Positions 29,988 to 32,742 of a stretch of DNA of 64,000 nt are shown here, piece by piece. Position numbers and translations under genes: made by a program. The DNA is taken from the NCBI RefSeq assembly GCF_001704275.1, contig NZ_CP011533.1:9176001-9240000 (forward strand), in the 5' to 3' direction. Source of the stretch: Streptomyces noursei ATCC 11455 (GTDB taxonomy: Bacteria > Actinomycetota > Actinomycetes > Streptomycetales > Streptomycetaceae). The stretch's first letter is position 1. Every line of letters begins with the position of its first letter. The notes under the pieces were generated by a model. That model saw only the letters and a list, made by a program, of their open reading frames with translations. It did no database searches and was not told the DNA's origin.

Positions 29988-30208
29988 GACAGCAACCTCC
30001 GACCGCACGGTGGACATCGATGCTCTCGCACGGCGTGCCCCGGGCGGGCACGCCGGCGGCGCGAGTGAGGGAAATGAGCCCCGGTAGGGGGACGGGCCAG
30101 GCGGGCGCGCAACGCCCGCGCCACGTCGCGCGAGGCCGGCGCGGCGCTGCCGCCGGGCGGCACCGGGCGAGGGTCGGAAGGCGGGGCGGTCCTGGGCGTG
30201 ATGGGGCG

Positions 30209-30256
30209 TCAGCGGTTGCCGGCGAGGCAGCGCGGACTGGGTGGGTCGTCGCCCAT
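30209..30256 (-). CDS. 15-codon leader ORF upstream of the ABC operon (acidic, proline-rich)
   Basis: ATG at 30256 follows AGGGAGG by 5 bases, one of the strongest SD sites in the region. The peptide is MGDDPPSPRCLAGNR, ending in TGA at 30209, 221 bp before the permease start. An Asp-Asp-Pro-Pro-x-Pro opening recalls the MgtL leader (EPDPTP), whose acidic/proline start destabilises ribosomes at low Mg2+ and so opens mgtA. The single Cys also allows a cysteine-attenuator reading. Function is inferred. Confidence 0.5.
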   Translation of the reverse strand: MGDDPPSPRCLAGNR

Positions 30257-30348
30257 GGCTGCCTCCCTTCGGCGCCGGCTGCTCGGGCCCTGGGGCCCTG
30301 GGGCCCGTCCGTGAGGGAGGGGCCTGGACGCGAGAAGTGTGCCCGTTA

Positions 30349-30364
30349 TTGCATCAATGTGCAA
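30349..30364. promoter_or_regulatory. TTGC-N8-GCAA palindrome, ABC/Nramp divergent region (site 1)
   Basis: TTGC (30349-30352), ATCAATGT, GCAA (30361-30364), flanked by A/T-rich bases (TTA before, ATATGG after). It lies upstream of the ABC leader ORF. Confidence 0.5.
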
Positions 30365-30562
30365 ATATGGAAGGGGCGGTTGCGGGGTTTCCGTTGTGGC
30401 GCAGCTGCCCGCCGTCGCTCGTCCGCGCCCCCGCCCCGCCTCCGCCAAGTCGTCCGGCGCGACGCCCTGGAGGGTTCCGTGCGATGAGCCGGAGGGTCGG
30501 GTCGGACGCGGGCGTGGACGTGGGTGCGGCCTCCGGGACCCGGTCAAGGCTGCGCCAAGTAG

Positions 30563-30578
30563 TTGCGTCGATATGCAA
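30563..30578. promoter_or_regulatory. TTGC-N8-GCAA palindrome just upstream of the M-box (site 2)
   Basis: TTGC (30563-30566), GTCGATAT, GCAA (30575-30578), about 33 bp before the M-box, so near the expected Nramp promoter. With site 1 it shares TTGCRTCRATRTGCAARTA, apart from one extra or shifted base. Confidence 0.5.
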
Positions 30579-30610
30579 GTAGAGGGCACACTCGTAGAGG
30601 TTTACGAAAG

Positions 30611-30775
30611 GCACCTCGTTCGGTGAGGCGTCTTCACGGACACAGGCCACTGACCCCACGACGTCGAGAGACGCCCAGGGTCAGGACAGGTCTCCCCGGC
30701 CTAAGGGGTGACCCCAAGTGGCTACCCCGCCAAGGGGGTTACGCCGTGGAGTGCCAAAGCTCTGACGAGTTGGGG
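30611..30775 (+). ncRNA. M-box (ykoK) magnesium riboswitch
   Basis: The sequence follows the M-box consensus in order: CTCGTTCGGTGAGG (the conserved GGTGAGGC start), GGACACAGGC with CACTGACCCC, GACGTCGAGAGACGCC, the partner GGGTCA, a variable hairpin arm, then GTGCCAAAGCTCT and ACGAG. CTCGT near 30614 closes helix P1 with ACGAG near 30764. M-box RNAs bind Mg2+ and switch off transporter genes when Mg2+ is sufficient. It lies 308 bp before the Nramp start. Confidence 0.88.
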
Positions 30776-30858
30776 TGAGCCGGCCGCATGCGGCCCGGTC
30801 CGCTCCTTGCCGGTCCGTCACGGCGCTCGGGCGCCCCAGCCGGGAGGAGGCGAGAGAC

Positions 30859-30936
30859 ATGGATGATCATTGCAGTAGTCCGGGCCACAGTCGGCCCCGT
30901 ACCCACCTGTCCTCGTTGACCTCCGGTACGCGGTAA
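30859..30936 (+). CDS. 25-codon leader ORF between the M-box and the Nramp gene
   Basis: ATG at 30859 follows GGAGGAGG at good distance. The peptide starts MDDHCSSPGHSRP and is rich in Ser, Arg and His; TAA at 30934-30936. Its position after the riboswitch and before an SD-hiding hairpin suggests translation-dependent control of the Nramp gene. Translation is predicted only. Confidence 0.55.
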   Translation: MDDHCSSPGHSRPRTHLSSLTSGTR

Positions 30937-31052
30937 CCACCTCCCCTGCGCGTCCGCGCATCACAGACTCGTACGTCACCCGTGCGGCACCACGCCGCCT
31001 CGGGTTCTCGTGCTGCCCGCTCGCAGGGGGGATCACTGCTGCGTGCCCCAAT

Positions 31053-31078
31053 CCTCCCCCGGACGGGGGACCGGGAGG
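31053..31078 (+). promoter_or_regulatory. Hairpin that can sequester the Nramp SD
   Basis: CCTCCC (31053-31058) is complementary to the SD GGGAGG (31073-31078). An alternative inner pairing, TCCCCC (31055-31060) with GGGGGA (31065-31070), would free the SD. The two pairings are mutually exclusive. Confidence 0.55.
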
Positions 31079-31083
31079 CTGCC

Positions 31084-32742
31084 ATGACCGACCTGACCAC
31101 CACCAGCACCACCACCCCACCCGTTCCGGCACCCCGCCCCGCCGTGCTCGACGACGCCCACGTCGGCGACATCCGCGGCGCGCTCGGCACCATCAAGCTG
31201 GACGACAACGCCCCGCGAACGGGACTGTCCGCCAAACTCAAGACGCTGCTCGCGATCGTCGGACCCGGCCTGATCGTCATGGTCGGCGACAACGACGCGG
31301 GCGCCTTCGGCACTTACACCCAGGCCGGGCAGAACTACGGCACGAGCCTGCTGTGGACGCTGCTGCTGCTCGTCCCCGTGCTGTACGTGAACCAGGAGAT
31401 GGTGCTGCGGCTCGGTTCCGTCACCGGCGTCGGCCACGCCCGGCTCATCCTGGAGCGGTTCGGCAAGTTCTGGGGAGCCTTCTCCGTCATCGACCTGTTC
31501 CTGCTCAACGCCCTGACCATCGTCACGGAGTTCATCGGCATCACCCTGGCCGTCGGCTACCTGGGCCTGCCGAAAGTGCCCAGCGTGCTGCTGGCCGCCG
31601 CGATCGTGGTGGTCGCGGCTTCGACGGGCTCCTTCCGCCGCTTCGAGCGCACCGCGATCCTGCTGTGCGCCGGGTCGCTGCTGCTCGTCCCGATCTTCTT
31701 CCTCGTGCACCCCTCGGCCGGGCGGATGGCGCACGACTTCGTCGTCCCCGGCATGCCGGCGCACTCTCAACTGTCCGACGTCATGCTGCTGATCATCGCC
31801 ATCGTCGGTACCACCGTCGCGCCCTGGCAGCTGTTCTTCCAGCAGTCCTACGTCATCGACAAGCGCATCACCCCGCGCTTCATGCGCTACGAGAAGGCCG
31901 ACCTGTGGATCGGCATCGTCATCGTCGTCATCGGCGCCGCCGCCATGATGGGGTTCTGCGCCGCGGCGTTCGCCGGCCACGGCGAGGCCGGCAACTTCAC
32001 CGACGCCGGAGCCGTGGCAGCCGGGCTGGAGAAGCACGCGGGCAAGCTCGCCGGGGTGCTGTTCGCCATCGCCCTGCTCGACGCCTCGATCATCGGCGCC
32101 TCCGCCGTCTCGCTGTCGACGGCCTACGCGATCGGGGACGTTCTGGGGCTGAAGCACTCGCTGCACCGCGGCATCAAGGGCGCCAAGGGGTTCTACGCGG
32201 TCTTCGCCGGCCTCGTCCTCGCCGCGGCGGTCATCGTGATCATCCCCGGTTCGCCGCTGGGCCTGCTCACCGAAGGCGTCCAGACCCTCGCCGGCGTACT
32301 GCTCCCGTCCGCCTCCGTCTTCCTGCTGCTGCTCTGCAACGACAAAGCCGTCCTCGGGCCCTGGGTCAACGGGCGGGCCATGAACGTCTTCACCTCGATC
32401 GTCGTGGCCGTCCTGGTGACGCTGTCCATCATCCTGACCGCCGCGGTCCTCTTCCCGGACATCAGCTCGACGACGATCCTCGACATCATGGCCGTCTGCG
32501 GTGTCGCCGGCATCCTCGCCCTCGGCTACGCCGAGACCCGACGCCGCCACAAGGGCTGGGCCCTGTCCGGACCCATCGACCGCACCGGCAAGGGCTCCTG
32601 GCGGATGCCGCCGTTGCGCGAGCTGCCCGCGCCCGTCCTCTCCACCGGTCGCAAGATCGGCCTGACCGCCCTGCGCACCTACCTGCTGGCCGCCATGATC
32701 CTCGTGATCGTCCGCATCGTGCAGCTCGCCGTCGCCCACTGA
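31084..32742 (+). CDS. Nramp-family divalent cation transporter under M-box control
   Basis: This 552-residue protein has an Nramp fold with about 11-12 membrane segments after a 50-residue polar N-terminus. In helix 1 the canonical DPGN metal motif reads GDNDAG (68-73), and in helix 6 the canonical AxxMPH reads TTVAPWQLFFQQ, so the transition-metal-selecting Met is absent. Such divergence is known in Nramp relatives that carry Mg2+ or other substrates. The M-box upstream strongly suggests Mg2+ uptake. The ATG at 31084 has GGGAGG 5 bases upstream; an upstream in-frame ATG at 30982 would have no SD. A hairpin follows the gene, then two further genes in the same direction. Confidence 0.88.
   Translation: MTDLTTTSTTTPPVPAPRPAVLDDAHVGDIRGALGTIKLDDNAPRTGLSAKLKTLLAIVGPGLIVMVGDNDAGAFGTYTQAGQNYGTSLLWTLLLLVPVLYVNQEMVLRLGSVTGVGHARLILERFGKFWGAFSVIDLFLLNALTIVTEFIGITLAVGYLGLPKVPSVLLAAAIVVVAASTGSFRRFERTAILLCAGSLLLVPIFFLVHPSAGRMAHDFVVPGMPAHSQLSDVMLLIIAIVGTTVAPWQLFFQQSYVIDKRITPRFMRYEKADLWIGIVIVVIGAAAMMGFCAAAFAGHGEAGNFTDAGAVAAGLEKHAGKLAGVLFAIALLDASIIGASAVSLSTAYAIGDVLGLKHSLHRGIKGAKGFYAVFAGLVLAAAVIVIIPGSPLGLLTEGVQTLAGVLLPSASVFLLLLCNDKAVLGPWVNGRAMNVFTSIVVAVLVTLSIILTAAVLFPDISSTTILDIMAVCGVAGILALGYAETRRRHKGWALSGPIDRTGKGSWRMPPLRELPAPVLSTGRKIGLTALRTYLLAAMILVIVRIVQLAVAH

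Follow-up and report, generated by a model that had tools for sequence, protein, structure and literature searches.

How might a magnesium riboswitch control a transporter gene from which it is separated by a short ORF and a long spacer? This question is raised by a locus in the window, meaning the whole 64,000-nt stretch of Streptomyces noursei DNA analysed here. The M-box (ykoK) aptamer, which a sequence-only reading had recognised by its consensus at 30611-30775, is scored by the Rfam model RF00380 at 30608-30781 (+) over the full length of the model (1-169 of 169), with 140.8 bits (E 9.7e-32) against a gathering score of 44. It is predicted from its family to sense Mg2+ and thereby control genes. 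In a permissive search of 30020-31120, the only other Rfam family to appear was a sub-threshold CRISPR-DR9 on the opposite strand. The gene at 31084-32742 (+) encodes an NRMT-like transporter of the Nramp family with 552 amino acids (PF01566, E 3.5e-79). Among solved structures, its product matches 7QIA best (E 2.9e-47; the second best has 7.2e-20); 7QIA is the NRMT of Eggerthella lenta, which transports magnesium. The alignment reveals that the two proteins have NDAG and GTT-APW in common, presumably the signatures of NRMT. The window gene is probably of the NRMT type and its product Mg2+-importing. Between the aptamer and this gene lies a leader ORF of 25 codons plus a stop codon (30859-30936, +; MDDHCSSPGHSRPRTHLSSLTSGTR), whose strong Shine-Dalgarno (SD) sequence GGGAGGAGG (30842-30850, +) sits 9-17 nt before the start codon. 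The spacer from the leader stop codon to the Nramp gene is untranslated and about 150 nt long. The same genome has two M-boxes, and both are accompanied by a leader of this kind and by an Nramp gene. The answer favoured here, with slightly better than an even chance of being right, is that the M-box gates translation of the leader, and that leader translation in turn opens a helix before the Nramp gene or spares the transcript from Rho.

Is this arrangement common in Streptomyces and in other Actinomycetota? Rfam searches were performed on 39 of 80 Nramp relatives, plus one locus of the own genome, and an upstream M-box was found in 31 of the 39. Genomes with an M-box numbered 13 of 295 in the genus, 55 of 150 in the family, 26 of 394 in the class, and 22 of 296 in the phylum, the own genome being counted every time. 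The assembled set comprises 194 loci, of which 177 are unique. An Nramp signature was recognised in 82 assembled loci, which is a minimum because the recognition motif missed some Nramp genes (such as those of L022 and L103). Fifteen of the 82 have no recognised leader start and were left out of the Nramp analyses (67 loci), and one more, lacking a P1 motif, was left out of the folding and pairing tests (66 loci). Among the genes after the remaining M-boxes are some that resemble, by eye, those for MgtE, MgtC, CorA, PE/PPE proteins, and ABC permeases. The MgtE-like type was checked on one relative having the leader and no M-box (L246), whose product matches PF03448 and CBS; its score against the mgtE model is below the cut-off.

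The claimed 25-codon ORF with its strong SD is indeed present and is conserved far beyond chance. An ORF following an aptamer was counted as a uORF when it had a strong SD, 10-50 codons, and a start codon 45-135 nt past the aptamer. Such uORFs were found at 92 of 111 Streptomycetaceae loci (0.8 by shuffling), at 40 of 48 other loci (1.8 by shuffling), nearly all of which belong to the same class as judged by handle or name, with one MAG (L035) of unstated class, and at 7 of 18 loci from other classes of the phylum (0.5 by shuffling). The distance from the start codon to the in-ORF hairpin (GGGCC-N6-GGCCC; 30882-30897, + in the window) takes six values, every one divisible by three, in the 86 loci with both anchors (86 of 86), and 64 of 65 loci have a distance divisible by three from this hairpin to the stop codon. 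As judged by these distances, the reading frame of the leader ORF is conserved. In the 67 loci, linker lengths fall into the three mod 3 classes as 28/20/19, and spacer lengths as 26/21/20. In the window, a GTG at the end of the aptamer begins a frame of 53 codons that continues without a shift into the leader ORF (30775-30936); this is probably due to chance, since the linker lengths of other loci do not preserve such a frame.

What could the M-box do to this ORF? In the window, the two lowest-energy folds exchange the pairing 30772-30777/30801-30806 for 30801-30814/30839-30852. The former is an alternative hairpin (30772-30806, +), in which GGGGTG of the P1 3′ strand (30772-30777) pairs with CGCTCC (30801-30806); it appears in the minimum free energy (MFE) fold of the window and in the RNAalifold consensus of 67 loci. 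The latter, obtained by constrained MFE folding, pairs a leader anti-SD, CGCTCCTTGCCGG..., with CCGGGAGGAGGCG (30839-30852), the whole spanning 30801-30852 (+). Folding of the 66 Nramp loci up to ATG+12 left the leader SD unpaired at 0.41 when the P1 3′ strand was free and at 0.18 when it was held as in the folded aptamer, the value being 0.31 when the letters of P1 were shuffled. At the other M-box loci with a uORF, 59 of 81 after exclusion of 22 having no usable P1 or SD motif, the corresponding values were 0.425, 0.197, and 0.330. Real P1 beats shuffled P1 in both sets (p 5.5e-6 for 66 loci and 1.2e-5 for 59 loci). Since shuffled P1 retains more than half of the difference between free and held (0.31 vs 0.18), part of the effect comes from composition. 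From ATG+45 onward, real P1 loses its advantage over shuffled P1 (p 0.15 or more); at ATG+75 the P1 effect vanishes (0.154 vs 0.140), and equilibrium folding of the full leader reveals no switch effect. Thus, the P1 effect shrinks as the ORF lengthens, and the switch is a prediction about co-transcriptional folding. The platform of anti-anti-SD, anti-SD, and SD is present in silico at the 66 plus 59 loci and disappears once folding includes the whole ORF. Comparison of cognate with non-cognate arms was not significant for the P1-alternative pairing (p 0.07), the in-ORF hairpin (p 0.69), or the pairing of the leader start with the ORF, and the cognate arms of the leader SD:anti-SD pairing were no better than non-cognate ones.

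In low Mg2+, P1 would be open, and its GGGGTG 3′ strand would pair with CGCTCC, tying up the leader anti-SD, so that the leader SD would be free and the leader translated. In high Mg2+, the folded aptamer would reclaim P1, and the anti-SD would cover the leader SD and turn the leader off. Both steps are predicted from the folding of 66 related leaders, and they agree with experiments on a similar mycobacterial uORF. The suggestion that Mg2+ acts on the leader through the M-box is supported in silico at leader initiation, and it seems quite likely that the M-box gates leader translation, taking this first switch alone.

The downstream half of the chain depends on an element that had escaped the sequence-only reading, as had the alternative hairpin and the leader anti-SD. 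It was found that the leader codons GGT ACG CGG, the stop codon TAA, and the next 17 nt (30925-30953, +) pair with a 3′ arm in the spacer, CGCAGGGGGGATC...CTGCGTGCC (31022-31047, +). In the first nine pairs (H1), 95% of 601 cells are standard pairs in the 67 loci; sliding the arms by 1-3 leaves 24-65% of cells paired, and shuffling the columns still gives 93%, because the H1 columns are so conserved. Double-changed cells number 16, while the maximum in shuffles is 8. The middle pair of H1 is C-G in 50 of the 67 loci and T-A in 13, a compensatory change (C-G to U-A in the RNA) that makes codon 24 ATG (Met) in place of ACG (Thr). On the Nramp tree of 65 tips (two of the 67 loci were too short), the T-A state occupies 12 tips and changes five times, and there are 8 pair changes. 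With the H1 arms read from plain alignment columns, cognate pairing is better than non-cognate pairing (p 1.7e-3); cognate pairing is also the better one in H2 (p 1.3e-3). When the 3′ arm was instead located through matching to the 5′ arm, T-A came out in 11 of 65, with 10 pair changes; this variant favours pairing and is not relied on. The helix between leader end and spacer has an energy of -24.8, compared with shuffles at -18.0 and -19.5. When RNAalifold was applied to the joined core, it returned almost nothing (energy -2.4). In 17 MgtE-type leaders, the stop-codon helix was not significant against shuffles, and it is thus not a general part of the module. According to the covariation, the long helix of the Nramp loci takes in the last leader codons together with the stop codon and stops short of the region around the Nramp SD.

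The Nramp SD itself had been read as hidden in a hairpin, CCTCCC (31053-31058)/GGGAGG (31073-31078), with a competing one, TCCCCC (31055-31060)/GGGGGA (31065-31070). The letters in this region (31053-31078, +) are present as proposed, but the Nramp SD pairs with the preceding 40 nt just slightly more than in shuffles (0.812 vs 0.765, p 9e-4, 67 loci). As drawn, the local hairpin is weak; its cognate arms were not significantly better than non-cognate ones (p 0.086). Could the M-box alone matter, the ORF and the hairpins being passengers in GC-rich sequence? The near-chance pairing of the Nramp SD would fit this explanation, which is nevertheless hardly credible in view of the frame conservation, the uORF frequency, and the covarying helix. 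It was also proposed that leader translation controls access to the Nramp SD. On the positive side, leader codons at 30919-30926 (+) contain an anti-SD, ACCTCCGG, to which the Nramp SD is complementary; over 67 loci the duplex energy is -9.2, compared with -6.7 in the other windows of the leader and -7.5 when letters are shuffled, while non-cognate partners of the leader anti-SD are no worse (-9.35). In the folding, the Nramp SD is predicted to pair chiefly with the leader end (0.46). The modelled opening is small: a ribosome-like block at the leader end raises Nramp SD accessibility from 0.151 to 0.172-0.179 (control blocks, 0.146-0.149), and a second folding with a ribosome at the stop codon raises it from 0.214 to 0.257, with 31% of loci going up and 13% down. 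The anatomy suggests a coupling of leader and Nramp gene that is energetically weak in the model.

With the M-box, the conserved reading frame, and the covarying helix evident in the sequences, the later steps may be pictured as follows. Ribosomes at the last codons and the stop codon would break the long helix and the anti-SD within those codons; otherwise, the unbroken helix and the anti-SD would keep the region before the Nramp start closed. Leader translation would then permit Nramp translation, spare transcription from stopping in the spacer of about 150 nt, or do both. At the window locus, the Mg2+ response, leader translation, and termination are all predicted steps. The small opening of the Nramp SD in the model leaves room for a transcriptional effect, and the spacer is long. 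It is conceivable, though on balance doubtful, that the translation state of the leader mainly decides Rho termination in the leader or in the spacer, the helix shielding the spacer and the masking of the Nramp SD being secondary. Rho-dependent termination was shown experimentally for the M-box leader of Mycobacterium tuberculosis (Mtb) pe20 (PMC12810186), whereas here it is a candidate step. A mere shield, however, would not need the precise covariation with the last codons of the leader.

Does the leader ORF depend on the aptamer? When the genus was scanned with a DNA pattern of the leader, 16 of 295 genomes gave 27 matches in all, and the reversed pattern gave 1. Seventeen of the matches lie after an M-box and 10 elsewhere. 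At these 10 loci, Rfam detected no M-box (E up to 0.01), and the ORF is open in all (10/10); several retain M-box remnants by eye. Four named Streptomyces loci (L001, L002, L008, and L011) likewise have kept the leader with no M-box by Rfam. These comparisons indicate that the leader ORF can outlast the aptamer, which raises the question of why it persists after aptamer loss. A third leader copy in the own genome (L261, at 8716494) has an open ORF and, by eye, the helix arms, with no M-box by Rfam. No Nramp gene was found within the stretch read around it, and thus some leader-only loci may be decaying.

Is the uORF rather a working small protein, for example a partner of the Mg transporter, encoded by the first gene of an M-box-controlled operon? 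Persistence at the 10 of 10 loci with no detected M-box would suit such a protein, as would an M-box-independent homologue in Mtb (PMC12810186) and the occurrence of related leaders before Nramp, MgtE-, MgtC-, CorA-, and PE/PPE-like genes, types assigned mostly by eye. I consider this explanation unlikely. In codons 14-22 of 30 leaders, pS is 0.308 and pN is 0.338, with no excess of synonymous change, which speaks against a purely protein role. The peptides are only 23-29 residues long in 66 of the 67 Nramp leaders, and codon 24 covaries between Thr and Met with the 3′ arm; the C-terminal codons of the Nramp leaders track RNA pairing.

The enterobacterial gene mgtA is not known to have an M-box. 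Its leader MgtL resembles the present leaders in being a short ORF, with acidic and Pro residues, before an Mg2+ transporter gene, with translation setting the RNA structure (PMC11282234 and PMC6460261). Full translation of MgtL turns mgtA off, and drop-off in low Mg2+ turns it on (PMC11282234). Is the leader a second, ribosome-based Mg2+ sensor of this kind, whose N-terminal Ser/Asp-Pro causes pausing or drop-off at low Mg2+? An early proline preceded by S, D, E, G, H, N, or K ([SDEGHNK]-P) is enriched, being found in 87 of 92 distinct peptides of the family, 26 of 38 distinct other peptides, and 3 of 7 distinct peptides of other classes (39.1, 14.2, and 1.4 after residue shuffling, respectively). 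The DPPSP of a second leader in the window (see below), the persistence of the leader after aptamer loss, and the MgtL precedent also favour such a sensor. The window leader, however, begins with MDDHCSSPGH, with acidic residues at 2-3 and Pro at 8, and has no counterpart of the EPDP motif of MgtL; the N-terminus of the divergent ABC leader, MGDDPPSP, is nearer to an EPDP-like motif. Moreover, the sign is opposite: full translation represses mgtA, whereas the M-box here would favour leader translation in low Mg2+, and leader translation would favour expression. A second sensor at this locus is improbable. A broader version may be entertained as a speculation of low probability, namely that the leader peptide is an old, phylum-wide Ser/Asp/Glu-Pro element read by the ribosome beside the aptamer and able to act alone, its C-terminus having been shaped in Streptomycetaceae by the transporter-coupling helix. 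If this were true, Actinomycetota would sense Mg2+ twice on one mRNA.

How much of the favoured chain, from M-box through leader to Nramp gene, is new? The chain had been called unfamiliar; M-box/Nramp (PMC4072509) and M-box/uORF (PMC12810186) combinations are already described. An M-box lies upstream of the gene for the Nramp-related magnesium transporter NrmT, mostly in Clostridia and Deltaproteobacteria (Shin et al. 2014, PMC4072509); this resembles the window in placing an M-box before such a gene and differs from it in the control by intrinsic terminators described for it. The words Streptomyces and Actinobacteria do not occur in the text of that paper. In Mtb, the pe20 M-box controls a conserved uORF2 (Rv1805A) via an anti-SD and an anti-anti-SD at the end of the aptamer (D'Halluin et al. 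2026, PMC12810186). The likeness to the window extends to a uORF that has a strong SD, follows the aptamer, and carries a Pro early in its peptide (residue 8 in the window, 7 there), to an anti-SD/anti-anti-SD platform acting on the uORF (here in silico only), and to a uORF homologue outside the M-box context. The authors regard the uORF2 peptide, in which Pro 7 is conserved, as specific for mycobacteria, and they report manganese-transporter-type genes after some mycobacterial M-boxes (the Mn-type branch). Five loci of the present set (L125, L126, L132, L237, and L238) are probably of this mycobacterial Mn-type and have an Nramp signature and a uORF; thus, the combination of M-box, uORF, and Nramp gene is not new as such. 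In contrast to pe20, leaders of the same plan occur here in Streptomycetaceae and other Actinomycetota, and in the window the transporter gene is NRMT-like and a covarying helix runs across the stop codon of the uORF. Searches of the text of PMC12810186 for Streptomyces, actinobacter-, actinomycet-, and 'leader peptide' returned nothing. In the open-access literature searched, no report was found of the Streptomyces-group leader, of the stop-codon helix, or of leaders that persist in Streptomyces after the aptamer is gone.

Are the two uORFs related by descent? A DNA model of the Streptomycetaceae leader matches 23 of 66 non-family M-box loci and 4 of 3300 shuffles, which lose the SD. Only three of the 23 matches have strong scores, and none of these three is a PE/PPE locus of the type MSPGDSPY or MSSSDSPGR. 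The PE/PPE-like loci have uORFs such as these two (Pro 7) in the same place after the M-box. It is likely that the Streptomycetaceae leader is homologous to the mycobacterial uORF. The window system is a variant of the published mycobacterial M-box/uORF arrangement, which is extended here beyond mycobacteria to Streptomycetaceae and other Actinomycetota, groups with harmless laboratory hosts; the helix across the stop codon of the uORF is an additional, testable element of coupling. In another class of the phylum (L103, L106, and L108), a uORF beginning with MDSEPG or MESDPG was seen by eye after a terminator-like hairpin with a T run, both lying between the M-box and an Nramp-related gene. 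Thus, the uORF coexists with a transcriptional platform at these loci.

The second leader of the window belongs to a divergent gene for an ABC transporter double permease (BPD_transp_1, PF00528; 28230-30017, -). This gene is preceded by a 15-codon leader ORF, MGDDPPSPRCLAGNR (30209-30256, -), whose DPPSP recalls MgtL. A related leader was found at 7 of the 30 permease loci examined, the own window included, or 7 of 14 among those of at least 74% identity. An M-box motif was not found in the 520 nt upstream of the ABC permease leaders. A locus from another family of the class (L119) has an M-box upstream of an ABC permease relative, which links this permease type to Mg2+ control. Finally, TTGC-N8-GCAA palindromes lie at 30349-30364, between the divergent genes, and at 30563-30578, just upstream of the M-box (TTGCGT-N4-ATGCAA). 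Of 125 unique M-boxes, 21 have this palindrome no more than 110 nt before them, while shuffling gave 0.16; only the total was used, as the split into Nramp and other loci mislabels some duplicate loci. The palindrome may be a putative operator.
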